Shown piece by piece: positions 5,275 through 55,535 of a stretch of 64,000 bases of DNA; the stretch's first letter is position 1; each line of letters starts with the position of its first letter. The notes under the pieces were generated by a model. The model was not told the DNA's origin and searched no databases. It saw nothing but the letters and a program-made list of their open reading frames with translations. The translations under genes were made by a program, and so were the position numbers. The DNA is from Begonia masoniana (Eukaryota; Streptophyta; Magnoliopsida; Cucurbitales; Begoniaceae): positions 44,119,124-44,183,123 of the forward strand of contig CM039512.1 in NCBI GenBank assembly GCA_022432975.1. The letters are read 5' to 3'.

Positions 5275-5374
5275 NNNNNNNNNNNNNNNNNNNNNNNNNN
5301 NNNNNNNNNNNNNNNNNNNNNNNNNNNNNNNNNNNNNNNNNNNNNNNNNNNNNNNNNNNNNNNNNNNNNNNNNN
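5275..5374. other. Assembly gap, 100 N
   Basis: An unbroken run of 100 undetermined bases, a conventional gap of unknown true size. It falls where the copia I 5' LTR should be. Confidence 0.98.
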
Positions 5375-10598: not shown

Positions 10599-13150
10599 TG
10601 TAACACCCGGCATTTTTGCCATGTAATTGTTTTCCCGAAACCATTTGTGCGGGATTAACATTTATATTTATACAACGTATGTTTTGGTTGAGTTGTTGGA
10701 AATGTCTAGTGAAACTAAACTAATGTGTAACCAAAACAAATTAATTAGGTTAAAAGCTACTGGAAGGGTAAATGTGGAAGTAATTAAGGTAGGTGGAAGC
10801 AAACCAATGGACGAGTGCCAAGTGGCAACTTGTTGAAGAAGATATGTCTTCTCTTCCCTCCTACGTGAAAGTTTCCACTTCTCCATCTTCTCTCCCTCTG
10901 TTTTCTCTCGGCCAGGCGACAAAAGTTCACCCAAACACCTTTGATCTCCTAGGGTTTTCCTTGTTTTCTGCCTAAGGTAAACATCTCCCAATGCTAACAC
11001 ATTTGGACAAGCAAAAAGTATGCGTTTTGCTGAAGTTTTAGGTTAGGATATTTAGGAGAAAACTCTCGAGTTTTGTGTGGAAACACATTGTTGTTTTCTA
11101 CCAGTCTGAGTGGAGTTTTCTGCTTAAATTTCCAAGTTATTTGTTAGCATTGCAACTTGTTTTATACCTCTTCATGCATGCTACAGATCCAAGCATTCCA
11201 GGGACATTCGAGCATCTGACACCGCAGCAACCAGGTAAGTTCATACGTTTATGTTGGCCCTTATGGCCCTACAACTTGGAGGTACTAGGTATGGTTTGGG
11301 TAGATAGGTTCTAGGTTATGTTTTAAGTTAAACATGTCTCTGTTATATTCTGTTTCCCTGTTGTATCCATTCTGCCATCTGTGAATGTTAAGTATCGCAC
11401 TTATCCATGCATACACGTTTTCCAGTAAAATCATGCAAATGTTTTCAACACTGGTTTTGAAGTAAGTAAGATAAAATCTGTAATGAAATGTGCGGTTAAG
11501 TGTGGATGAGGACTGGCATCCTGTCAAGTACTCCTGTTATGTCCTGAAAGTGGCATGTACATCCTGTTGCGCCAGCTCCTCCTCCCACTTATACCTTCCT
11601 GTCCAGTGAAATGTAATGTAATGTAATGTTCCTGTATTTGAAACGTTCATGCATAGCATATGCATCACTGCATTTATTCTGATATGTTCTTACTGAGCTT
11701 TAGGCTCATAGGTGAACTCCCTGTTGTAGGTACGGATCCTGTGGATGAGGACTTGGTGCCTCAGGCCGAGGTGTAGGTTGCTGTTGGCGGATCGAGCTCT
11801 CAGGGTTGGTTGCTGCAGTCAGGCAAAATTCTGTATGGAAGTTTATGTCTTTAAAGTAAAGTTCATATTTGTAAACTTTTCTGGATGTTTGAGGTTCTGT
11901 TTTAAAACCCTGTTGTAGTCTTGTGTTTTATTTTGAAAGTTTTGTGGGAAATTTTGAAATGTATAAGTCCTGTTGTTGGTGTATTTTTAAACCTCTGTAT
12001 TTGACAGATTGTATCCATATATTTTAAATGTTTTGAAAACATTCCGGAACTGCTTGAGTTCTCCATTTTTAGGTCATGCATGGATAGTCTCAAATTTTAG
12101 AGCTATCCATGCAGTTTGTCTGCTCGAACTCCCGTCATTTGTAGAGTATGATTTCAAAACTTTGTCTCGGAATCGGGTTTGAGGGTCTGAAGCCCTTATG
12201 CCTCCTGTTTTGATGTTCCCTGCCTGTAAGTCTTTATGTTAAAATTTGCTAAGTTTGTCACAAATTTCATCTTCCGGTCACTATTCACAATTTTTGTCTT
12301 CCGGTTGACGTCATCTTCTCTTCCGATGACGTCGGCATAAGTCTTCCGCCCAGTTATAAATTTTGTCTTCCGGTTGACGTCATCTTCTCTTCCGATGACG
12401 TCAGCATAAGTCTTCCGCCCAGTTTATAACTTTGTCTTCCGGTTGACGTCATCTTCTCTTCCGATGACGTCAGCATAAGTCTTCCGCCCAGTTTATAACT
12501 TTGTCTTCCGGTTGACGTCATCTTCTCTTCCGATGACGTCGGCATAAGTCTTCCGCCCAGTTATAAATTTTGTCTTCCGGTTGACGTCATCTTCTCTTCC
12601 GATGACGTCAGCATAAGTCTTCCGCCCAGTTTATAACTTTGTCTTCCGGTTGACGTCATCTTCTCTTCCGATGACGTCGGCATAAGTCTTCCGCCCAGTT
12701 ATAAATTTTGTCTTCCGGTTGACGTCATCTTCTCTTCCGATGACGTCAGCGTAAGTCTTCCGCCCAGTTTATAACTTTGTCTTCCGATGACATCAGAACG
12801 TCTTCCGGCTGACGTCATCATCTTCTGCCGGTTATGTTTGCTGCCTTTATCTTCCGATGACGTCATCCACTGATTTCTCCTCCGGTTCCGTTTAAAACTA
12901 CATATTCCGCCAGTTTTATGCTATTTCTGTTCGGTTATCCATTTATGAGACCTGTTTGTTTTCCATTCCAGAGAACTCTGTCTTCCCCTGTAAATGTTTT
13001 CGATTACCCACTGCAGTTCTCCCTCTCTGTTCACTGTTTTGACTGTTCTAGTTGTTCAAAAAAAAATAGTCACTGTTATTTCCTGTAAATGTCCCGGAGT
13101 GACGGCTCCGATCCCGGAACCCGATTCGGATCCGGTTTCGGGCTGTCACA
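10599..13150 (+). mobile_element. Solo LTR, copy B
   Basis: It starts TGTAACACCCGGC and ends GGGCTGTCACA, flanked on both sides by ATTTC, a perfect five-base duplication. There is no primer site, polypurine tract or coding sequence, so it is a solo LTR or an equivalent non-coding insertion. It is closely related to copy C across its length, with differences concentrated in a variable segment and in the number of 69-base units near the 3' third. The ends resemble LTR ends of plant Ty3/gypsy chromoviruses. Confidence 0.85.
12296..12778 (+). repeat. 69-bp tandem repeat, seven units, rich in TGACGTCA
   Basis: Seven consecutive units start every 69 bases with GTCTTCCGGTTGACGTCA. Each unit has one TGACGTCA palindrome and a second GATGACGTC site that is a full palindrome in some units. 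TGACGTCA is the classical core bound by plant bZIP/TGA factors. A diverged eighth partial unit follows. The related LTR copy C has only two units. Confidence 0.9.
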
Positions 13151-17423: not shown

Positions 17424-19894
17424 TGTAACACCCGGCATTTTTGCCATGTAATTGTTTTCCCGAAACCATTTGTGCGGGATTAACATTTATATTTATACAA
17501 CGTATGTTTTGGTTGAGTTGTTGGAAATGTTTAGTGAAACTAAACTAATGTGTAACCAAAACAAATTAATTAGGTTAAAAGCTACTAGAAGGGTAAATGT
17601 GGAAGTAATTAAGGTAGGTGGAAGCAAACCAATGGATGAGTGCCAAGTGGCAACTTGTTGAAGAAGATATGTCTTCTCTTCCCTCCTACGTGAAAGTTTC
17701 CACTTCTCCATCTTCTCTCCCTCTGTTTTCTCTCGGCCAGGCGACAAAAGTTCACCCAAACACCTTTGATCTCCTAGGGTTTTCCTTGTTTTCTGCCTAA
17801 GGTAAACATCTCCCAATGCTAACTCATTTGGACAAGCAAAAAGTATGCGTTTTGCTGAAGTTTTAGGTTAGGATATTTAGGAGAAAACTCTCGAGTTTTG
17901 TATGGAAACACATTGTTGTTTTCTACCAGTCTGAGTGGAGTTTTCTGCATAAATTTCCAAGTTATTTGTTAGCATTGCAGCTTGTTTTATACCTCTTCAT
18001 GCATGCTACAGATCCAAGCATTCCAGGGACATTCGAGCATCTGACACCGCAGCAACCAGGTAAGTTCATACGTTTATGTTGGCCCTTATGGCCCTACAAC
18101 TTGGAGGTACTAGGTATGGTTTGGGTAGATAGGTTCTAGGTTATGTTTTAAGTTAAACATGTCTCTGTTATATTCTGTTTCCCTGTTGTATCCATTCTGC
18201 CATCTGTGAATGTTGAGTATCGCACTTATCCATGCATACACGTTTTCCAGTAAAATCATGCAAATGTTTTCAGCACTGGTTTTGAAGTAAGTAAAGATAA
18301 AATCCTGTAATGTAATGAACGGTTAAGGGTGGACGAGGACTGGCATCCTGTTCTTGTCCTTCCCTGGGACTCATGTAAAATTTATCCCCGCCAAGGATAC
18401 CCTGTACCTTGTCCTTCCCTGGGACACCGGCAAAATTACTAACAAGTGTCATGTCCAGTATGTTATGTATGTTATGCGCCAGTTCCTCTATAAGCCTCAC
18501 TTATACCACCATGTGCAGTGAAACGTAATGTAATGTTCTGTCACCGTTTTTCTGAAAACTGCATGCATAGCATTTTGCATCACTGCATGTTGATTGTGTT
18601 CTTACTGAGCTTTAGGCTCATAGGTGAACTCCCTGTTGTAGGTACGGATATTCCAGATGAGGACCCGGTGCCTCAAAATGACGAGCTGATGTAGTTGGTG
18701 GATCGAGCTCACGGGGTCTGGCTGTTGCAGTCAGACAAGATGTATTCCTGTGAGCGTGTATATTTGAAAGTTAAGTCGAGTCCTGTATAGATTTTGTGTT
18801 TTGTTTTAAAACTCCTGTTTTGGTAAAAATTTAAATGTATGTCAAGTTCCTGTAAAACTTTTGGAATCTGTTATTGATGTATTTAAAACCTCTGTATTTG
18901 ACAGATTGTATCCATATATTTTAAATGTTTTGAAAACGTTCTGGAACTGCTTGAGTTCTCCCTTTCAGGTCATGCATGGATAGTCTCGAATTTTAGAGCT
19001 ATCCATGCAGTTTGTTTTCCTCGAAATTTGTCATCTGTGGTGAAAGTTTGAAACTTGTATGCCTTCTGTTTTTCATGCTTCCTGCCAGCAGGTATCTTCG
19101 TTAAAAGATGTCATGGTGCAGGATGTCTTCTTGAAATTTTGTCCATTGTAAAGTATATTTTTATAACTTCTTTTGAATCGGGTTTGAAGGTTTTGAAATC
19201 CTTTATGCTTCCTGTTTAAGGTTGCCTTCTATATGTCTTTCTGTCAAAAGTTGTAATTCTGTCTTTAAAACTATGTCTTCCGATTGCGTCTTCCGGTTAC
19301 TGTTCACATTTTTCTTCTACCGGTGACGTTATTTGTCTTCCGCCCGGTTTATAACGTTGTCTTCCGGTTGACGTCATCTTCTCTTCCGATGACGTTGGCA
19401 TAAGTCTTCCGCCCAGTTTATAACTTTGCCTTCCGGTTGACGTCATCTTCTCTTCCGATGACGTTGGCATAAGTCTTCCGCCCAGTTTATAACTTTGTCT
19501 TCCGATGACGTCAGAACGTCTTCCGGCTGACGTCATCATCTTCTGCCGGTTATGTTTGCTGCCTTTATCTTCCGATGACGCTATCCACTGATTTCTCCTC
19601 CGGTTCAGTTTGAAACTACATCTTCCGCCACTGTTTCCTGTTTCCATTTCCGCCAGTCTTATGCCTATTTCTGTTCGGTTATCTATTATTGAGATTTGTT
19701 TGCTTTCCATTCCAGAGAACTCTCTCTCCCCCTGCAAATGTTTTCGATTACTCCCTGCAGTTCTTCCTCTCTGTTCACTGCTTTGATTGTTCTATTAGTT
19801 AAAAAAAAAATAATAGTCACCGTTTCCTGTAAATGTCCCGGAGTGACGGCTCCGATCCCGGAACCCGATTCGGATCCGGTTTCGGGCTGTCACA
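17424..19894 (+). mobile_element. Solo LTR, copy C, nested in the Athila LTR
   Basis: It starts TGTAACACCCGGC and ends GGGCTGTCACA with AACTA on both sides. The other Athila LTR shows the empty site, GCCCTAACTATCTCTAGCC, at about 25543-25561, with AACTA once. This proves both the boundaries and the five-base duplication. Its first 900 bases are almost identical to copy B. It has a distinct segment near 18345-18480 and only two of the 69-base units. Confidence 0.95.
19359..19496 (+). repeat. 69-bp units in LTR copy C, two copies
   Basis: Two 69-base units of the same type as in copy B; the second palindrome of each is altered to GATGACGTTGG. The array is five units shorter than in copy B. Confidence 0.85.
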
Positions 19895-22598: not shown

Positions 22599-24950
22599 CT
22601 AATCTGGTGCACGGAGAATAATAGTTGTATCATTATGAAAAACCCCGTTAAGATACGGCTTCGCTCTTTTTCCGTTTACTAATTTATCAATTTCAGGAAG
22701 CTCTTTGTCTGGCATATTATCGACAATTGGCTCATTGCTAGCTGTTGGGTAATTTATGGATTTATATACTTTGAATGTCACCTCGTCATCATATACTTGC
22801 AATTTGAGCTCTCCTTTTCTTAGATCAATAACAGCTCCCCCTGTTGCTAAAAATGGTCGACCTAATATTATCGGGATGCCTCGGTCTTCGTCCATATCGA
22901 GAATCAAGAAATCAGCGGGAAAAATAAACTTGTCGATTTTGACAAGGACATCTTCAATCACCCCATACAGATGTTTTATAGAGCGATCGGCCATCTGTAG
23001 GATTACCCTGGTGGGCTTTGCTTCACCAATACCCAGCTTACGAAATATAGATAGCGGCATCAAATTTATACTAGCACCCAAATCACATAATGCCCGCTCA
23101 AAAATGGACTCCCCAATTGCACATGGTATGGTGAAACTTCCCGGATCTTTCAATTTTTGTGGAAGCTTCCGTTGAACAATGGCACTACATTCCTCAGTCA
23201 AAGCGATCGTGCCATATTTGTCAATTTTCCGTTTATGAGACAAGATGTCTTTCAGAAACTTTGCATATTTAGGCATTTGCTCGAGTGCCTCTGCGAATGG
23301 AATATTGATGTGGAGCTTTTTGAAGATATCAAGAAACTTAGAAAACTGATTATCAAGCTTCACATTTTTCAGTCTTTGTGGAAAAGGTACTTTTGAGAGG
23401 ATCTCCTTTGGAATCTGAGGTGGAGCTTCCAGTAGCCCTTGATCCTTTGGTGTGGACTCGGATGATGACGAATGCACTCCGTCATGTGCGACCACTTTCT
23501 TATTTTCCTTAGTACAATTTTCAATCACTTTTCCACTCCTAAGTGTAATGGCATTGCATTGTTCTCTGGGGTTGATTTCAGTAGAACTGGGCAATGTACC
23601 TTGTGGGCGTCCATTTAGTGCAGCTGCCATCTGGCCCATTTGTGTCTCTAAGCTTCGAATTTGGGCTGACTGATTCTGTAAGGTGGTTCGTGTCTCAGCC
23701 ATAAATTTATTTGTGTGTTCCCCCATTTCAGCAATTAAATTATTGGTGCGCTCTCCCATCTTTGCAATTAAATCCTCCAGATTTGATTTTCTTTCTGGAA
23801 ACGGAGGTCCCGGTTGATTAGCTTGTGGCATCTGTATGGCGTTGTTCGGGTCCTTCCATGAGAAGTTCGGATGATTGTTGTGCCCCCCAATATAGTAGTT
23901 ACCGGAATTCTGAAGTGTCGGTCTATTATAATTTCCCACATATTGAGCTTGTTCAGATGAACTTCTCGCCATTTGGTTCCCTTGCTGACAGTTTTCACTC
24001 GCATGTGGTCCTTGGCACCATTGACATTGCATGATAGGGGAATGAATTGCATTAACTGGAGTTTGGTTTCCTTGAATATGTCGAGTGAGAGATGCGATTT
24101 GCGTAGTTAATGCTTTAATTGCTTCCATTTCTGGGGTATTTGACTGCCTTCTCAAGATCTGGCGCTCAACTGGGCACTGATCATTATTGAGTGATAACTC
24201 CTCTAATAGGTTAAATGCCTCTATTTCTGTCTTCTGTAAGAATGATCCACCAGCTGCGGAGTTAACGAGATTCCGTGTAGACACTGATAATCCAATGAAA
24301 AATGTCTGTATTTGCATCCATTGAGGTAGACCATGTTGGGGGCATCTTCGTAAAAGCTCTTTGAATCGGCCCCATGCCTCATAAATTGTCTCACCATCAA
24401 ATTGAGTAAAATTTGTGATCTCATTGCGGAGTTTTGCCATCTTTTCAAAGGGAAAGAATTTTGATAGAAATTTCTGTGCTAAATCATTCCATGTTGTAAT
24501 TGAATCTGGAGGTAAGGAGTGTAACCAATTCTTTGCACGATCTCTCAGTGTGAAGGGGAATAACCTGAGCTTGATAGCATCCTCGGAGACATTATGGTAT
24601 TTAAAAGTATCATAGACCTCGACGAAGCTAGCAATATGATCCTTGGGGTCTTCGTTAGGCAAAACACAAAACTGATACTGTTGGATCATTTGTATTGTAC
24701 CCGGCTTTATTTCAAAATTATTGCATGTGATAGCCGGTTTCCGAATTGCTGATTGAATCCCGTCCATGGATGGCATAACATAATCGAGCAAAGTTCGTCG
24801 TCCGACCTCTGCCACTTCAACCCTCTGTTGTAGATTTGCGTTTTGATCATCTGCCATAATTGCTTGTTTTGTTTCCCTTCGATTTCGGCGACAGGTTCGT
24901 TCAATTTCAAGGTCGATAGGGATTAGGTTGGCAGTACCTAATTTTCGCAT
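22599..24950 (-). CDS. Athila gag-protease polyprotein, intact frame
   Basis: This frame of 783 codons encodes the capsid/nucleocapsid and aspartic protease of an Athila-like element; particles would assemble in the cytoplasm. The capsid region (about residues 55-270) has NNFEIKPG, LPNEDPKDHIASF, LRLFPFTLRDRAKNWL and YEAWGRFKELLRRCP, all typical of Athila gag. A zinc knuckle CQWCQGPHASENC lies near residues 305-320 and a probable coiled coil near 390-440. An AITLRSGKVI motif follows. The protease (about 600-720) has CDLGASINLMP and IPIILGRPFLATGG; DLG, not DSG, is usual in this family. The ATG at 24948-24950 follows the leader and is the first in frame. No stops or shifts are seen, so it may be expressed. 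Polymerase and integrase are lacking. Confidence 0.9.
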   Translation of the reverse strand: MRKLGTANLIPIDLEIERTCRRNRRETKQAIMADDQNANLQQRVEVAEVGRRTLLDYVMPSMDGIQSAIRKPAITCNNFEIKPGTIQMIQQYQFCVLPNEDPKDHIASFVEVYDTFKYHNVSEDAIKLRLFPFTLRDRAKNWLHSLPPDSITTWNDLAQKFLSKFFPFEKMAKLRNEITNFTQFDGETIYEAWGRFKELLRRCPQHGLPQWMQIQTFFIGLSVSTRNLVNSAAGGSFLQKTEIEAFNLLEELSLNNDQCPVERQILRRQSNTPEMEAIKALTTQIASLTRHIQGNQTPVNAIHSPIMQCQWCQGPHASENCQQGNQMARSSSEQAQYVGNYNRPTLQNSGNYYIGGHNNHPNFSWKDPNNAIQMPQANQPGPPFPERKSNLEDLIAKMGERTNNLIAEMGEHTNKFMAETRTTLQNQSAQIRSLETQMGQMAAALNGRPQGTLPSSTEINPREQCNAITLRSGKVIENCTKENKKVVAHDGVHSSSSESTPKDQGLLEAPPQIPKEILSKVPFPQRLKNVKLDNQFSKFLDIFKKLHINIPFAEALEQMPKYAKFLKDILSHKRKIDKYGTIALTEECSAIVQRKLPQKLKDPGSFTIPCAIGESIFERALCDLGASINLMPLSIFRKLGIGEAKPTRVILQMADRSIKHLYGVIEDVLVKIDKFIFPADFLILDMDEDRGIPIILGRPFLATGGAVIDLRKGELKLQVYDDEVTFKVYKSINYPTASNEPIVDNMPDKELPEIDKLVNGKRAKPYLNGVFHNDTTIILRAPD

Positions 24951-35576: not shown

Positions 35577-36258
35577 TCACTCCCTCACGTGTTTACACTC
35601 GATTATATGTCTTTCCACTCGTGTTTCCCTCAAATAATGGCTTTTGTATGATAGTCTCACCCTCTTGCCTTTTACCTCTCAATTTTCTCTTTAATCTCTT
35701 TATGTAAAAACTTTTCAAGAAAGGAAACTTTTCAAGAAAGGAAACTTTTCAAGAAAGGAAACTTTTCAAGAAAGGAAACTTTTCAAGAAAGGAAACTTTT
35801 CAAGAAAGGAAACTTTTCAAGAAAGGAAACTTTTCAAGAAAGGAAACTTTTCAAGAAAGGAAACTTTTCAAGAAAGGAAACTTTTCAAGAAAGGAAACTT
35901 TTCAAGAAAGGAAACTTTTCAAGAAAGGAAACTTTTCAAGAAAGGAAACTTTTCAAGAAAGGAAACTTTTCAAGAAAGGAAACTTTTCAAGAAAGGAAAC
36001 TTTTCAAGAAAGGAAACTTTTCAAGAAAGGAAACTTTTCAAGAAAGGAAACTTTTCAAGAAAGGAAACTTTTCAAGAAAGGAAACTTTTCAAGAAAGGAA
36101 ACTTTTCAAGAAAGGAAACTTTTCAAGAAGGAAACTTTGACAAATAAAGAGAATCGTTGATTCAATGACTTTTTTTTTTTTGAATTTTTGGATTTTTTTT
36201 TTTTGAATTTTTGGATTTTTTTTTTTTGAATTTTTGGATTTTTTTTTTTTGAATTTTT

Positions 36259-36327
<69 letters not shown>

Positions 36328-36359
36328 CGAATTTCCGAATTTTTTTTTTTTGAATTTTT

Positions 36360-36401
<42 letters not shown>

Positions 36402-36850
36402 AATTTTCAAAAGGAAACTTTTCAAGAAAGGAAACTTTTCAAGAAAGGAAACTTTTCAAGAAAGGAAACTTTTCAAGAAAGGAAACTTTTCAAGAAAGGA
36501 AACTTTTCAAGAAAGGAAACTTTTCAAGAAAGGAAACTTTTCAAGAAAGGAAACGTTTTACGAAAGGAAACTTTTCAAGAAAGGAAACTTTTCAAGAAAG
36601 GAAACTTTTCAAGAAAGGAAACTTTTCAAGAAAGGAAACTTTTCAAGAAAGGAAACTTTTCAAGAAAGAAAAAATAAAAAATATTAGTGAACAAAACAAA
36701 GTAAACGGAACTCACTCACTCCCTCACGTGTTTACACTCGATTATATGTCTTTCCACTCGTGTTTCCCTCAAATAATGGCTTTTGTATGATAGTCTCACC
36801 CTCTTGCCTTTTACCTCTCAATTTTCTCTTTAATCTCTTTATGTAAAAAC
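35521..36850. repeat. 191-bp segment duplicated 1139 bp apart
   Basis: 35521-35711 and 36660-36850 are almost identical (TCAAGAAAGAAAAAATAAAA to TTTATGTAAAAAC). The material between them is almost wholly minisatellite and poly-T, so the duplication and the array expansion are linked. Confidence 0.9.
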
Positions 36851-40650: not shown

Positions 40651-41243
40651 CTGATGCGAACCTCAGATTGAAAGGACCCGGGACCCGACAACAACGCGGA
40701 ATAATTCAAAGGAATGCCTTTCCGATTCAAGAACAAAGTAAGGAACTAAGACCCCAATCAAAGAATTCGATGGAACCCTAGTTATCAAAACAGGAGCTTG
40801 ACCCGAGCCACACCTGTTAGCTGAACCGAAGCTATCAAAACAGGAGCTTGACCTAGACCAAACTCGTTGGTAAGAACCAAAGCTATCAAGTGAGATTCTT
40901 CAAGTGTGACTTGAAGAAGATCGTTGTTCTTCGCAAAGAACTAAAGAGAAATCCTCTCTAAAAACTCAACCATTTTAATTCAAACTTGTTCTTCCATTAA
41001 ATCAAATGGTTTTGCCATTAAATAGGCTACATATTAAAATGAAATAAAATAATAAAAAAAATAAAAATAAAAATAAAATAACTAATAAAATTGTGAGATA
41101 ATGATCCTTTGCATGATCAGATATCATCTCACGTTTAAACTACGTTTGAATATGATTTGAATTGATTTGAGTAGATTCTGTTGCATAAGACCTCTCATAC
41201 GTGATTTGTTTGAATTTGCATGTGCTTCGCATGTGACTTTTTA

Positions 41244-44115
41244 TGTCAAGCCCCGGCCCTTTTCATAGTGACACCGGTTTTAACCCAGCCCTTTTCACAG
41301 TTACACTGGGTGGCCCAACTCACAGAACTTTCCCCTCCCTGTAGGTTATTTTTGCCTTCCTCCCTACTCGAACCCAAGACCTCAGGGTTAAGTACCTGGG
41401 CTACAAGTGAGGAGTACCACTTGGGCTAGTAGCTCAAGTGGTACTCCTCACTTGTAGCCCAGGTACTTAACCCTAAGGTCTTGGGTTCGAGTAGGGAGGA
41501 AGGCAAAAATAACCTACAGGGAGGGGAAAGTTCTGTGAGTTGGGCCACCCAGTGTAACTGTGAAAAGGGCTGGGTTAAAACCGGTGTCACTATGAAAAGG
41601 GCCGGGGCTTGACAAAAAAGGCGCCTTTTTTTTGTCAAGCCCCGGCCCTTTTCATAGTGACACCGGTTTTAACCCAGCCCTTTTCACAGTTACACTGGGT
41701 GGCCCAACTCACAGAACTTTCCCCTCCCTGTAGGTTATTTTTGCCTTCCTCCCTACTCGAACCCAAGACCTCAGGGTTAAGTACCTGGGCTACAAGTGAG
41801 GAGTACCACTTGAGCTACTAGCCCAAGTGGTACTCCTCACTTGTAGCCCAGGTACTTAACCCTAAGGTCTTGGGTTCGAGTAGGGAGGAAGGCAAAAATA
41901 ACCTACAGGGAGGGGAAAGTTCTGTGAGTTGGGCCACCCAGTGTAACTGTGAAAAGGGCTGGGTTAAAACCGGTGTCACTATAAAAAGGGCCGGGGCTTG
42001 ACAAAAAAAGGCGCCTTTTTTTTTTGTCAAGCCCCGGCCCTTTTCATAGTGACACCGGTTTTAACCCAGCCCTTTTCACAGTTACACTGGGTGGCCCAAC
42101 TCACAGAACTTTCCCCTCCCTGTAGGTTATTTTTGCCTTCTTCCCTACTCGAACCCAAGACCTCAGGGTTAAGTACCTGGGCTACAAGTGAGGAGTACCA
42201 CTTGGGCTAGTTAGCCTTTTCGTTAACCTTTTCGTTCACCTTTTCTATAACCTTTTCGTTCATCTTTTCGTTTATCTTTTCGTTAGCCTGTTCGTTAGCC
42301 TTTTCGTTAACCTTTTCGTTCACCTTTTCGTTTACCTTTTTGTTAACCTTTTCGTTTACTTTTTCATTTCTCTTTTCGTTAACCATGATGCATGAACAAT
42401 TCATATCTTAAAGTAAACAAGCAATACTGTATACCATCAAAGACTGTAAAACATAATCTATAAAACAAATAAACCTAGCTACCCAACCAAAGCAATATAA
42501 AACAAGTGCGTCTCCAAAATTCCTCGACACGACATTCGACGTACGGTGTAGGCCAATCGGCCAGAGAAGATCACGAGAACTTACCTTTTTTTGTCAAGCC
42601 CCGGCCCTTTTCATAGTGACACCGGTTTTAACCCAGCCCTTTTCACAGTTACACTGGGTGGCCCAACTCACAGAACTTTCCCCTCCCTGTAGGTTATTTT
42701 TTCCTTCCTCCCTACTCGAACCCAAGACCTCAGGGTTAAGTACCTGGGCTACAAGTGAGGAGTACCACTTGAGCTACTAGCCCAAGTGGTACTCCTCACT
42801 TGTAGCCCAGGTACTTAACCCTAAGGTCTTGGGTTCGAGTAGGGAGGAAGGCAAAAATAACCTACAGGGAGGGGAAAGTTCTGTGAGTTGGGCCACCCAG
42901 TGTAACTGTGAAAAGGGCTGGGTTAAAACCGGTGTCACTATGAAAAGGGCCGGGGCTTGACAAAAAAGGCGCCTTTTTTTGTCAAGCCCCGGCCCTTTTC
43001 ATAGTGACACCGGTTTTAACCCAGCCCTTTTCACAGTTACACTGGGTGGCCCAACTCACAGAACTTTCCCCTCCCTGTAGGTTATTTTTGCCTTCCTCCC
43101 TACTCGAACCCAAGACCTTAGGGTTAAGTACCTGGGCTACAAGTGAGGAGTACCACTTGGGCTAGTAGCTCAAGTGGTACTCCTCACTTGTAGCCCAGGT
43201 ACTTAACCCTGAGGTCTTGGGTTCGAGTAGGGAGGAAGGCAAAAATAACCTACAGGGAGGGGAAAGTTCTGTGAGTTGGGCCACCCAGTGTAACTGTGAA
43301 AAGGGCTGGGTTAAAACCGGTGTCACTATGAAAAGGGCCGGGGCTTGACAAAAAAAGGCGCTTACCCCGGCCCTTTTCATAGTGACACCGGTTTTAACCC
43401 AGCCCTTTTCACAGTTACACTGGGTGGCCCAACTCACAGAACTTTCCCCTCCCTGTAGGTTATTTTTGCCTTCCTCCCTACTCGAACCCAAGACCTCAGG
43501 GTTAAGTACCTGGGCTACAAGTGAGGAGTACCACTTGGGCTAGTAGCTCAAGTGGTACTCCTCACTTGTAGCCCAGGTACTTAACCTGAGGTCTTGGGTT
43601 CGAGTAGGGAGGAAGGCAAAAATAACCTACAGGGAGGGGAAAGTTCTGTGAGTTGGGCCACCCAGTGTAACTGTGAAAAGGGCTGGGTTAAAACCGGTGT
43701 CACTATGAAAAGGGCCGGGGCTTGACAAAAAAGGCGCCTTTTTTTGTCAAGCCCCGGCCCTTTTCATAGTGACACCGGTTTTAACCCAGCCCTTTTCACA
43801 GTTACACTGGGTGGCCCAACTCACAGAACTTTCCCCTCCCTGTAGGTTATTTTTGCCTTCCTCCCTACTCGAACCCAAGACCTCAGGGTTAAGTACCTGG
43901 GCTACAAGTGAGGAGTACCACTTGGGCTAGTAGCTCAAGTGGTACTCCTCACTTGTAGCCCAGGTACTTAACCCTGAGGTCTTGGGTTCGAGTAGGGAGG
44001 AAGGCAAAAATAACCTACAGGGAGGGGAAAGTTCTGTGAGTTGGGCCACCCAGTGTAACTGTGAAAAGGGCTGGGTTAAAACCGGTGTCACTATGAAAAG
44101 GGCCGGGGCTTGACA
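41244..44115. mobile_element. Palindromic array of tRNA-SINE-like arms in a TG...CA insertion, copy E
   Basis: The block starts TGTCAAGCCCCGGCCC and ends with its exact reverse complement, flanked by TTTTA on both sides (41239-41243 and 44116-44120). It holds about 13 arms of roughly 180 bases alternating in orientation: seven plus and six minus, with one minus arm replaced by 42211-42591. Tail-to-tail junctions have GGCGCC between A and T runs; head-to-head junctions centre on GGGCTAGTAGCTC. In each arm TAGCTCAAGTGGTA resembles a tRNA A box and GGGTTCGAGT a B box 45-50 bases further on, with a poly-A-like tail, so arms look like tRNA-derived SINEs. A foldback DNA element is the alternative. 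Confidence 0.7.
42211..42591 (-). repeat. 12-bp minisatellite and LTR-core-like segment inside the array
   Basis: 42211-42383 is about 14 copies of CCTTTTCGTTAA-type units. The rest, read on the minus strand, has AAGGTAAGTTCTCG, then GGCCGATTGGCCTACA, then TTTGGTTGGGTAGCTAGG, the same landmarks in the same order as the core of LTRs A-C (CAGGTAAGTTC, GGCCCTTATGGCCCTAC, GGTTTGGGTAGATAGG). This is why I group the array with the long LTR family. Confidence 0.6.
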
Positions 44116-44628
44116 TTTTAATTCTTACACGTGCATGTGCATGGCACATGTAAATCTTCATGCATCTTTAGCCTCCCTTGCTTCAAAAGATCTTCCAATA
44201 ATTTTGGGCTTCTTGCTCTTGTTATTGGGTTGCGGGTATCTTCAATTGGATCCTTATTCTTGGGCTTTGACTTGGTCTCAACTTGGATTACATCATAAAC
44301 CAAGTCATGTGGATCTTTATCTCTTTCCAACTCACATGAATCTTTATCTCTTTGTAGTTTGTGTAGATCTCTACCCTTCTCTCTCCAATCCATTGGGATT
44401 TGTGGAGCCCAACTCCGTGCCTTATGGGTCTTATTTTGCCAAGTTCGTGGGGTCCACTTCCATGCTATAATGCTCTTTATTTTTATGGTCTCTTGCTTTT
44501 GTTGTGATCGCTCTTTTCCTCGAGTTTCCACGACTAAACCATGTGAAGCTTTGTTCGTTGGAACTCCTTTATCTTCTAATAAATCATGGTCATTGACAAT
44601 GAGATTTATCGCTCCTCGGTTCATATCA

Positions 44629-46237: not shown

Positions 46238-46828
46238 TAAAAATAAAAAACAAAACAACAGAATGGCCGAAGCCATTCTGCTGTTCGCGAGTGCCGAAGG
46301 CAGGGCAGCGAAGGGGAGAGGCGAGGGCGAGCGATCGACGGCCGTTCACCGCCGGCGACTCGACGCTCTCCGGCCAAACGACTTCGGCGAGTAGGTTCCG
46401 GCCGTCTCCGCGCGCGCACCGACTGGTAAGCTCGATTTTTCCCCTGTTTTCCTCTCTGTTCTAGGCCGTGGATCACTGAGCTGCTAGAGCTCCAATCGCC
46501 GGCCGTTTTTGGTTGCTCTCGGCGTCGAATTGCCGAGCTCGGTGCTGGCAAGGGTTGCCGAGCAATGGTGAGCTCGGATTGAGTGAAAAACCGAGGGCTA
46601 GGTTTTTGGAGCTCGGGTTTTTGTGTGGAATTTCGGGTTTTCTTTTTAGGTTATGTTAATTGGTTGTTAGGGGGATTGATTGGTGAGGAATTGGGTGGAG
46701 TTTGATGGAAAATCGGAAAGGGAGAAATTTCGGATTAAGGGGCAGATTCGGGTTTTTGCTATTTTGATCTAGCTCGGGTCGTTTGTTTTCAAATTCCTTT
46801 TGGCAGGTTAAAATAGGTTATTAGAGGA

Positions 46829-49800
46829 TGTACGCTTTGTGTCTCGTAAGAGATGTACGCTTGTGTCTCGTAAGAGATGTACGCTTGTGTCTCGTAAGAG
46901 ATGTACGCTTGTGTCTCGTAAGAGATGTACGCTTGTGTCTCGTAAGAGATGTACGCTTGTGTCTCGTAAGAGATGTACGCTTTGGGTGTCTCGTAAGAGA
47001 TGTACGCTTTGGGTGTCTCGTAAGAGATGTACGCTTTGGGTGTCTCGTAAGAGATGTACGCTTTGGGTGTCTCGTAAGAGATGTACGCTTGTGTCTCGTA
47101 AGAGATGTACGCTTTGGGTGTCTCGTAAGAGATGTACGCTTTGGGTGTCTCGTAAGAGATGTACGCTTGTGTCTCGTAAGAGATGTACGCTTTGGGTGTC
47201 TCGTAAGAGATGTACGCTTGTGTCTCGTAAGAGATGTACGCTTGTGTCTCGTAAGAGATGTACGCTTGTGTCTCGTAAGAGATGTACGCTTGTGTCTCGT
47301 AAGAGATGTACGCTTGTGTCTCGTAAGAGATGTACGCTTGTGTCTCGTAAGAGATGTACGCTTGTGTCTCGTAAGAGATGTACGCTTGTGTCTCGTAAGA
47401 GATGTACGCTTGTGTCTCGTAAGAGATGTACGCTTTGGGTGTCTCGTAAGAGATGTACGCTTTGGGTGTCTCGTAAGAGATGTACGCTTTGGGTGTCTCG
47501 TAAGAGATGTACGCTTTGGGTGTCTCGTAAGAGATGTACGCTTGTGTCTCGTAAGAGATGTACGCTTGTGTCTCGTAAGAGATGTACGCTTGTGTCTCGT
47601 AAGAGATGTACGCTTTGTGTCTCGTAAGAGATGTACGCTTGTGTCTCGTAAGAGATGTACGCTTTGGGTGTCTCGTAAGAGATGTACGCTTGTGTCTCGT
47701 AAGAGATGTACGCTTGTGTCTCGTAAGAGATGTACGCTTTGTGTCTCGTAAGAGATGTACGCTTTGGGTGTCTCGTAAGAGATGTACGCTTGTGTCTCGT
47801 AAGAGATGTACGCTTTGGGTGTCTCGTAAGAGATGTACGCTTGTGTCTCGTAAGAGATGTACGCTTTGTGTCTCGTAAGAGATGTACGCTTGTGTCTCGT
47901 AAGAGATGTACGCTTTGGGTGTCTCGTAAGAGATGTACGCTTGTGTCTCGTAAGAGATGTACGCTTTGGGTGTCTCGTAAGAGATGTACGCTTTGTGTCT
48001 CGTAAGAGATGTACGCTTTGGGTGTCTCGTAAGAGATGTACGCTTTGGGTGTCTCGTAAGAGATGTACGCTTGTGTCTCGTAAGAGATGTACGCTTGTGT
48101 CTCGTAAGAGATGTACGCTTGTGTCTCGTAAGAGATGTACGCTTGTGTCTCGTAAGAGATGTACGCTTTGGGTGTCTCGTAAGAGATGTACGCTTTGTGT
48201 CTCGTAAGAGATGTACGCTTTGGGTGTCTCGTAAGAGATGTACGCTTGTGTCTCGTAAGAGATGTACGCTTTGGGTGTCTCGTAAGAGATGTACGCTTGT
48301 GTCTCGTAAGAGATGTACGCTTTGGGTGTCTCGTAAGAGATGTACGCTTGTGTCTCGTAAGAGATGTACGCTTGTGTCTCGTAAGAGATGTACGCTTGTG
48401 TCTCGTAAGAGATGTACGCTTTGGGTGTCTCGTAAGAGATGTACGCTTTGGGTGTCTCGTAAGAGATGTACGCTTTGGGTGTCTCGTAAGAGATGTACGC
48501 TTTGGGTGTCTCGTAAGAGATGTACGCTTGTGTCTCGTAAGAGATGTACGCTTTGGGTGTCTCGTAAGAGATGTACGCTTGTGTCTCGTAAGAGATGTAC
48601 GCTTTGTGTCTCGTAAGAGATGTACGCTTGTGTCTCGTAAGAGATGTACGCTTTGGGTGTCTCGTAAGAGATGTACGCTTGTGTCTCGTAAGAGATGTAC
48701 GCTTGTGTCTCGTAAGAGATGTACGCTTGTGTCTCGTAAGAGATGTACGCTTGTGTCTCGTAAGAGATGTACGCTTGTGTCTCGTAAGAGATGTACGCTT
48801 TGGGTGTCTCGTAAGAGATGTACGCTTTGTGTCTCGTAGAGATGTACGCTTTGGGTGTCTCGTAAGAGATGTACGCTTTGGGTGTCTCGTAAGAGATGTA
48901 CGCTTTGGGTGTCTCGTAAGAGATGTACGCTTTGTGTCTCGTAGAGATGTACGCTTTGGGTGTCTCGTAAGAGATGTACGCTTTGTGTCTCGTAGAGATG
49001 TACGCTTTGTGTCTCGTAGAGATGTACGCTTTGTGTCTCGTAGAGATGTACGCTTTGGGTGTCTCGTAAGAGATGTACGCTTGTGTCTCGTAAGAGATGT
49101 ACGCTTTGTGTCTCGTAGAGATGTACGCTTTGTGTCTCGTAGAGATGTACGCTTTGTGTCTCGTAGAGATGTACGCTTTGGGTGTCTCGTAAGAGATGTA
49201 CGCTTTGTGTCTCGTAGAGATGTACGCTTTGTGTCTCGTAGAGATGTACGCTTTGGGTGTCTCGTAAGAGATGTACGCTTTGGGTGTCTCGTAAGAGATG
49301 TACGCTTTGTGTCTCGTAGAGATGTACGCTTTGTGTCTCGTAGAGATGTACGCTTTGTGTCTCGTAGAGATGTACGCTTTGTGTCTCGTAGAGATGTACG
49401 CTTTGTGTCTCGTAGAGATGTACGCTTTGTGTCTCGTAGAGATGTACGCTTGTGTCTCGTAAGAGATGTACGCTTTGGGTGTCTCGTAAGAGATGTACGC
49501 TTTGGGTGTCTCGTAAGAGATGTACGCTTTGTGTCTCGTAAGAGATGTACGCTTTGTGTCTCGTAGAGATGTACGCTTTGTGTCTCGTAAGAGATGTACG
49601 CTTTGGGTGTCTCGTAAGAGATGTACGCTTGTGTCTCGTAAGAGATGTACGCTTTGGGTGTCTCGTAAGAGATGTACGCTTTGTGTCTCGTAAGAGATGT
49701 ACGCTTTGTGTCTCGTAAGAGATGTACGCTGGGTGTCTCGTAAGAGATGTACGCTTTGGGTGTCTCGTAAGAGATGTACGCTTTGTGTCTCGTAAGAGAT

Positions 49801-50035
49801 GTACGCTGGGTGTCTCGTAAGAGATGTCGCTTTGTGGCTCGTAAGAGATGTACGCTTTGTGTCTCGTAGAGATGTACACTGGTTGTCTCGTAAGAGATGT
49901 ACGCTTGTGTCTGGTAAGAGAGTTATACGCTGGGTGTCTCGTAGAGATGTACGCTTTGTGTCTCGTAAGAGATGTACGCTTTGTGTCTCGTGAGAGATGT
50001 ACGCTTTGGGTGTCTGGTGTGAGCTGTAAGCTGGG
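46829..50035. repeat. 24-27 bp minisatellite, roughly 125 units
   Basis: Four main variants share GTACGCTT and GTCTCGTA: 24 bases (CTTGTGTCTCGTAAGAGAT), 27 bases (CTTTGGGTGTCTCG), 25 bases (CTTTGTGTCTCGTAAG) and 24 bases (CTTTGTGTCTCGTAGAG). The last variant is confined to about 48830-49580, so that part expanded separately. Units after about 49700 are increasingly mutated. Because units lack stops in several frames, very long open frames appear on both strands; I do not regard them as genes. Confidence 0.97.
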
Positions 50036-54029: not shown

Positions 54030-54880
54030 CTTACATTCACCTGGATGGTTCTTCTTACACTTCTGGCATTGAGGAAACTGCAAAGGTCCTTGCATACACT
54101 TTCCGTCTCTCTGATTGATCTTGTCGTCTCTGGGTCTTTTTGTCCCCTTAAATTGTTGTTGCCATCCTTTGCTCTGCTGAGGTGGAATTTCTCTCAAAAA
54201 CCTATTCGGGGGATCCCTTTGCTTGAGAAACTTTAATTCACCTTCTTCGACTTCCAATGCCTTGGCTACCACCTTAGCATACGACACATCTTGAGTTTCG
54301 AATATCTTTACCCCTCTATAAATCTCTACCTTCAATCCTTGTACAAACTGGTGAACTTTGTTTTCATTGTGGCTCATCAAGTGGCTGGCATAACGAGACA
54401 GTGCTTCAAACTTCCTGACATATTTTGCTATTGATCCGGTCTGACGTAGTTGGGTAAACTCCACCATTTTGTTTGTTTGGAGGGTGTTACTGAAATACTT
54501 GTCGTAGAATACAACTTTGAACTCTTCCCATGACATCTCCTTCACATTGGTTGTGGCCTTCACCGTATCTCACCAGTACCTGGCATCTTTTGCAAAATGT
54601 AACATAGCGCTCGAGACTTTCTCTCTTTTGTCCACTTTAGCGTAGTTGAACATGTCTTCCATGGTTCGAATCCATTCTGCAACATAAAGGGGATCCGGTG
54701 ACAATCTATCAAACGTTGGAGGCCGGAGTCGGTGGAACCTAACTCCGCTCTGATCATTTGAAACACTGGAACTAGAATTCTCATGTTCCTCTGTAACGAC
54801 CCATTTTTCCAACAAGATATTGTCTGCTATGGGGATTGAGTTGTAACTCAATATCCTCCCCTCACGGCTTTGTTTGGCAA

Positions 54881-54960
54881 GGACTTTCCAGTCGGTCACC
54901 CAACCTGGTACTACTCTCGCCGAATCACTTTTTACTTCGGAGTTCTTATGGGATCTGTTG
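54881..54960 (-). promoter_or_regulatory. 5S-rRNA-derived Pol III promoter segment, left LTR
   Basis: The minus strand reads GATCCCATAAGAACTCCGAA, then GCGAGAGTAGTACCAGG, then TTGGGTGACCGACTGG, matching the 3' half of plant 5S rRNA including the A-box and C-box region. It is the closest of the three to true 5S. Confidence 0.8.
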
Positions 54961-55177
54961 CCAATTGTGCTCCAAAACGCGTCTTACTATCTTGGGAGGG
55001 TCTCTTTACATATGTTTCATTTCCACATACTTCCCCAAGCGATGTGGGATTGTGACGACCCTTTTTTACGACCCGTCACCTTCCAGTTTGTCTGCGCAAA
55101 TGTACCGCCATCCGAGTTCCGGTTCGTGCAGCCATCGTACACATACTTACACATCTGGGTCATCACAATCACCTCCC

Positions 55178-55258
55178 GGACTTTCCAGTCGGTCACCCAA
55201 CCTGGTACTACTCTTACAGAAGCACTTTTAACTTTGGAGTTCTTATGGGATCTGTTGC
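55178..55258 (-). promoter_or_regulatory. 5S-derived segment, middle LTR
   Basis: It differs from the left copy in the middle, with CTCCAAAGTTAAAAGTGC and CTGTAAGAGTAGTACC in place of the more 5S-like bases. Confidence 0.78.
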
Positions 55259-55467
55259 CAATTGTGCTCCAAAACGCGTCTTACTATCTTGGGAGGGTCT
55301 CTTTACATATGTTTCATTTCCATATACTTCGCCAAGCGATGTGGGATTGTGACGACCCCTTTTTTACGACCGTCACCTTCCAGTTTGTCTGCGCAAATGT
55401 ACCGCCATCCGAGTTCCGGTTCGTGCAGCCATCGTACACATACTTACACATCTGGGTCATCACAATC

Positions 55468-55535
55468 ACCTCCCCTCGGAGGCCCAACGTCCTCGTTGGC
55501 CACATTTTTGGTTGGGTACAGGCTCTGATACCATT
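55468..55535 (-). other. Cassandra internal domain
   Basis: On the minus strand a primer site TGGTATCAGAGCC lies next to the right LTR and a GAGGGGAGGTGAT purine tract next to the middle LTR. No coding capacity, as normal for TRIMs. Confidence 0.85.

Follow-up and report, generated by a model that had tools for sequence, protein, structure and literature searches.

A tandem array of head-to-head palindromes with SINE-like arms in the Begonia masoniana assembly

Foldback elements, including FB, Tetris, Galileo and the plant foldbacks, have inverted ends built from repeated modules, vary in their middle part and in module number, and have no coding capacity. Tetris has been linked to satellite arrays (PMC4079207). 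Plant tRNA-derived SINEs such as Au and p-SINE1 are short and carry box A- and box B-like motifs together with an A-run at the tail (PMC10741241). Miniature LTR elements (TRIMs) are found in tandem arrays, as in the case of Cassandra, which is small and has a promoter of the Pol III type (PMC7215508). Finally, a TGTNR terminus has been reported for Gypsy LTRs and Ginger elements, and 5-bp target duplications for TDD-4/5, in a report whose main text does not use the word "plants" (PMC2836005).

Here, we present an analysis of a 2.9-kb block at positions 41244-44115 of a 64-kb window of Begonia masoniana DNA (GCA_022432975.1, contig CM039512.1); the window is the whole stretch of 64,000 nucleotides that was analyzed, and all positions refer to it. 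The array is present in the given assembly, and its structure is unusual. We hold, with about as much confidence as doubt, that the block is a young foldback element or foldback satellite that grew by palindrome-driven copying. The window has the look of flowering-plant DNA and is crowded with retroelement fragments: Pfam detected Ty1- and Ty3-type gag, protease, reverse transcriptase and integrase domains in nine of the ten open frames tested. For the Ty3-type gag at 22599-24950, the named sources among the 120 of 468 matches listed are almost entirely flowering plants; the best named match among those listed is from Melia azedarach (52% identity), and one carries a bacterial MAG label. On the strand opposite this gag frame, an Rfam snoR71 match (24328-24434; 59.5 bits versus 40) is perhaps retroelement-derived. 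The window also contains a 69-bp tandem repeat (12293-12786 and 19335-19513, both inside a larger duplicated stretch of the window), a 17-bp tandem repeat AAACTTTTCAAGAAAGG flanking both sides of a 230-base T-rich run (35708-36672), and a 3.2-kb satellite of ~25/51-bp, GATGTACGCTTTGTGTCTCGTAAGA-like units with long open stretches in several frames (46827-50008). Two tandem 297-bp copies with a 5S rRNA-like stretch (54866-55474; Rfam 5S, 41 bits versus 38, minus strand) are perhaps a Cassandra-type element, and at 54637-54672 an exact box B-like GGTTCGAATCC lies 25 bases after a box A-like motif.

The first-pass annotation had described thirteen arms of about 180 bases in alternating orientation. 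Both the count and the coordinates were borne out; the arm length is 185 bp, except in arm 10 (178 bp) and arm 11 (184 bp). The arms are oriented − + − + − to the left of a spacer (42210-42591) and − + − + − + − + to its right. Orientation thus alternates at 11 of the 12 arm-to-arm steps, and strict alternation is rejected because arms 5 and 6, both on the minus strand, point in the same direction across the spacer. Aligned over 185 columns, the arms differ at five substitution columns and one single-base gap, with pairwise identities of 97.8-100% (mean, 99.2%). Column 5 is C in seven arms and T in six, which defines C-type and T-type arms, and column 46 is G in nine arms and A in four. A 30-base head pattern, allowing up to three mismatches, matched 13 times in the window and always inside the block (mean of 0.00 matches in 100 shuffles); no arm copy was found elsewhere in the 64 kb.

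To the left of the spacer, unit 1 consists of arm 1 (41244-41428, −; C-type, with the left terminus TGTCAAG) and arm 2 (41430-41614, +; T-type). A tail junction of A-run, GGCGCC and T-run (41615-41632; six A, counting the arm's last A, and eight T) leads to unit 2, which is flipped relative to unit 1 and consists of arm 3 (41633-41817, −; T-type) and arm 4 (41819-42003, +; C-type). A second junction of this kind (42004-42024; seven A and ten T) leads to arm 5 (42025-42209, −; C-type), a half unit that ends at the palindrome centre and is the sole unpaired arm within the 64 kb. The 382-bp spacer begins with a 12-bp minisatellite (TTTTCGTTAACC-like; 42210-42384), followed by ~200 bp that are unique in the window and then by a T-run up to arm 6. 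Blast searches with the spacer, the flanks and the joined flanks against the window returned self-matches only. To the right of the spacer, unit 4, which is flipped, comprises arm 6 (42592-42776, −; T-type) and arm 7 (42778-42962, +; C-type), and is joined by a tail junction (42963-42979; six A and seven T) to unit 5, made of arm 8 (42980-43164, −; C-type) and arm 9 (43166-43350, +; T-type). Unit 6 follows a damaged junction, GGCGCTTA (43351-43364), from which the T-run is lost, and comprises arm 10 (43365-43542, −; C-type), which is short by its last seven bases, and arm 11 (43544-43727, +; T-type), which has a one-base deletion. A last tail junction (43728-43744; six A and seven T) connects it to unit 7, with arm 12 (43745-43929, −; C-type) and arm 13 (43931-44115, +; T-type), which ends in the right terminus CTTGACA.

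The palindrome, not the single arm, looks like the repeating unit of this array. The head-to-head junctions of the earlier description are all present, and each is the centre of a ~371-bp palindrome with one central base; there are six complete units and one half unit. At all six complete head joints, a C-type arm is paired with a T-type arm, and the centre base is G with the C-type arm to the left and C with that arm to the right. With random pairing of six C-type and six T-type arms, mixed joints throughout have a probability of 0.069, and of 0.0022 once the centre rule is included. The five tail joints, in contrast, pair the types as T/T, C/C, C/C, T/C and T/C and are mixed in only two cases. 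Because these marks identify the head-to-head palindrome as the unit, the term "SINE concatemer" that had been applied to the block is misleading. The units stand as direct repeats ~388 bp apart; of the six complete ones, two (units 2 and 4) are flipped, and unit 2 is the reverse complement of unit 5 across 395 nt (printed identity, 100%). A unit can be flipped merely by exchange between its own two arms, so that separate insertions need not be invoked. Altogether, 2487 of the 2872 bases of the block lie within 20-mers whose complement also occurs in the block. We also considered whether repeated circular copying of a dumbbell (hairpin-capped) template could alone have produced the array; C and T types should then alternate throughout, which is true of arms 8-13 but not of arm pairs 2/3, 4/5 and 7/8, and we reject this model.

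The links between units measure 17-21 bp. All five tail-to-tail GGCGCC junctions were located; four are intact (A6-7 to the left and T7-10 to the right of GGCGCC), while the one at 43351-43364 is damaged. Since GGCGCC is its own reverse complement, the tail joints are, like the head joints, palindromes with almost no loop. Such joints would be expected to result from fold-back copying, or from the opening and subsequent copying of a hairpin; they are not expected of independent insertions, because each insertion should bring its own duplication. An A-run is found at 10 of the 13 arm tails, the exceptions being arms 1, 10 and 13; nine of these A-runs lead into GGCGCC and the next arm, and that of arm 6 leads into the spacer. 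The outer ends of the block have no A-run/GGCGCC tail. Because the internal tails have A-runs and the outer ends do not, the outer ends may be trimmed rather than cut by an integrase.

The block as a whole ends in TGTCA...TGACA and is flanked by a 5-bp duplication, TTTTA, at 41239-41243 and 44116-44120. These inverted termini and the duplication, both proposed before, held up in a scan of 14 starts and 18 ends for a duplication of 4-8 bp combined with inverted ends of at least 5 bp, in which 41244/44115 was the single qualifying pair. From these edges, the inverted run is exact for 180 bases, and the block contains inverted arms of 531 nt at 98% identity; long inverted ends, internal modules and a variable middle are features of foldback elements, whereas TG...CA ends with a ~5-bp duplication are features of TRIMs and LTR elements. 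The terminus TGTCA fits TGTNR. The chance of a 5-bp match at fixed edges amounts to 0.00243 across the window as a whole and to 0.0014 for the flanks nearby, and is somewhat higher because several edges were tried; in AT-rich flanks, a match of this length is not strong by itself. The duplication surrounds only the whole block, and there are no target duplications between units.

We suggest that the block could have originated in three steps. First, a ~185-bp tRNA-SINE-like sequence with an A-rich tail would have been copied back along the opposite strand, and the resulting head-to-head duplication would be a near-perfect palindrome of ~371 bp with a one-base centre. Second, this palindrome, which the present structure displays in both orientations joined tail to tail via the A-run/GGCGCC/T-run link, would have become the amplified unit; extruded hairpins or cruciforms may have driven this by promoting template switching, centre flips and unequal exchange. 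Third, the block or a smaller ancestor may have entered the site as one element with TGTCA...TGACA ends and a 5-bp duplication, inserted by a transposase or integrase whose elements end in TG/CA. When the two open frames of the arm were used in protein searches, no candidate emerged, and the block has no recognizable coding partner; its mobility is putative. It is a long shot that the block represents a putative mobile plant element in which a palindromic SINE-like unit with integrase-type TG/CA ends copies itself from hairpin templates into arrays of flipped and unflipped units; that such an element would be a hybrid of a SINE promoter, a foldback body and LTR-type ends is similarly speculative. 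The likely effect of the block would be structural, through fork stalling and recombination.

The arms contain three private substitutions in 2398 bases, a count that does not include a single C-to-T-like letter located beyond the arm edges used, where arm 10 is damaged. With substitution rates of 6.5e-9 and 1.3e-8, this would mean an age of ~0.1-0.2 million years for the array; however, an old array could seem young through gene conversion.

Among the alternatives to a foldback origin, the first is that the arms are true tRNA-derived SINEs inserted side by side, or copied, in alternating directions. Each arm has a box A-like TAGCTCAAGTG at its position 1 and a box B-like GGTTCGAGTAG 54 bases on; since the arms are copies, the boxes constitute one observation and not thirteen. 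Scored against consensus motifs, they reach 19 of 22, a score also reached by 202 of 5000 dinucleotide shuffles on either strand (p ~0.04) and by 7 of 1346 overlapping tiles taken from the rest of the window. The motifs that the first-pass annotation had noted are present in all arms, but shuffled sequence scores as well in a fraction of cases. The A-runs at 10 of 13 tails also fit a SINE, as do the lack of TTTT on the sense strand of all 13 arms (each of the 13 antisense strands has four) and the T-run within 15 bases past the tail of 10 of the 13. However, an Rfam covariance search gave no tRNA match in the arms up to an E value of 10, and ARAGORN in its bacterial setting found no tRNA in the 64-kb window. 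Moreover, a Pol III gene needs a leader upstream of box A; because box A begins with the very first arm base and nothing precedes it there, this leader would lie in the opposite arm. An A-rich tail with a target duplication around each copy, as SINEs have, was not found; the head joints are exact to the base in all six complete units, no dispersed arm occurs in the 64 kb, and separate insertions would hardly give arms so alike and so regular. The tRNA-SINE reading is, therefore, only suggestive, and the arms are best called SINE-like and not SINEs. We regard true SINEs as unlikely.

An assembly or sequencing artefact, in which a single palindrome was multiplied by misassembly or by fold-back reads, could account for the very high identity of the arms, and the assembly has at least one 100-N gap (5275-5374). 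Against this, arms 4, 5 and 6 have private substitutions and arm 11 a private one-base deletion, one junction is damaged, the runs in the links are of unequal length, units are flipped, and a unique spacer lies in mid-block. A fold-back read would, moreover, yield one large palindrome rather than thirteen short arms. These features make an artefact improbable.

Similarly improbable is a tandem TRIM array in which the palindromic unit would serve as the LTR, in the manner of the Cassandra arrays. The TG...CA ends, the TGTNR-like terminus, the 5-bp duplication, the spacing of the units as direct repeats and the existence of tandem TRIM arrays (PMC7215508) are consistent with this idea. By eye, however, the links are A-run/GGCGCC/T-run palindromes with no TGG-starting tRNA-primer site and no purine tract before the next unit, and the units occur in both orientations. 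We know of no palindromic LTR.

Strong folding, as predicted from the first reading, was confirmed. A unit folds as a near-perfect hairpin with an almost perfect 185-bp duplex at −395.8 kcal/mol (z, −46.8), compared with a mean of −128.3 kcal/mol for shuffles, none of which (0/100) was as good. Whether this gives double-stranded RNA, as had been proposed, depends on the polymerase. If Pol III reads from the heads, its transcripts would end at the T-run of the tail joint, and because transcription outward from both heads gives same-sense RNA from both arms, no double strand would form. Double-stranded RNA would need another polymerase that reads through an entire unit, or read-through at the damaged arm 9/arm 10 joint, where the first TTTT lies 23 bases past the tail of arm 9. 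A transcript reading through a unit would be a hairpin RNA that plant Dicers could cut, and small RNAs from the array are possible. That the block is a hairpin-RNA or microRNA-like locus kept for its small RNAs is also improbable: the 185-bp duplexes, the arm 9-to-arm 10 stretch without a T-run (−382.0 kcal/mol if read through) and an Rfam mir-252 match just above the cut-off at 43881-43979 (45.7 and 45.6 bits on the two strands versus 45) would suit it, but the near-identity of the arms points to recent copying and not to kept function. We reject the match as evidence for a microRNA gene: a palindrome, like any hairpin, is matched on both strands at one place, and mir-252 is presumably an animal family.

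Thirteen arms persist in tandem in the block, although instability is expected of perfect palindromes with arms of nearly 200 bp and a one-base centre. Provided that reads confirm it, the block would offer a natural setting in which to study how palindromes are copied and tolerated in plant cells, and would also bear on how foldback arrays start and on whether such hairpins feed RNA-directed DNA methylation. A literature search covering titles and abstract openings outside subscription papers, with many off-topic entries among its results, returned no head-to-head SINE arrays in plants; as evidence of absence this is weak. Virus and prokaryote contig collections gave no matches when scanned with patterns from the arms, which says little for a plant element.

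Compared with known systems, the block shares the short arm length, the box A- and box B-like motifs and the tail A-run with the plant SINEs Au and p-SINE1, but its arms lack duplications of their own, a tRNA match and single copies in the 64 kb, and the opposite arm replaces the 5′ leader. Like Cassandra, it consists of small elements in tandem arrays, with a Pol III-type promoter that in the block is putative; the LTRs of Cassandra are direct and contain 5S sequence, whereas the block has palindromic units with tRNA-like motifs. The TGTNR terminus is common to the block, Ginger/TDD and Gypsy, and the 5-bp duplication to the block and TDD-4/5; the block differs in having no integrase gene. 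The inverted amplicons described in yeast are large chromosome segments that contain an origin and are typically triplicated, in contrast to thirteen arms of 185 bp, and to our knowledge this mechanism has not been described in plants for units so small. With foldback elements, the block shares inverted ends of repeated modules, a variable middle and module number, and no coding capacity. Tetris, as far as it is described in PMC4079207, has duplications of 8-10 bp and belongs mostly to Mutator, and its modules, ~220 bp long, are direct repeats arranged in tandem inside each end, whereas the block has a 5-bp duplication and TG/CA ends, and a module that is a palindrome and appears flipped. Altogether, the block fits best near the foldback elements, of which it would be a variant distinguished by TG/CA ends and by a SINE-like module that is palindromic.
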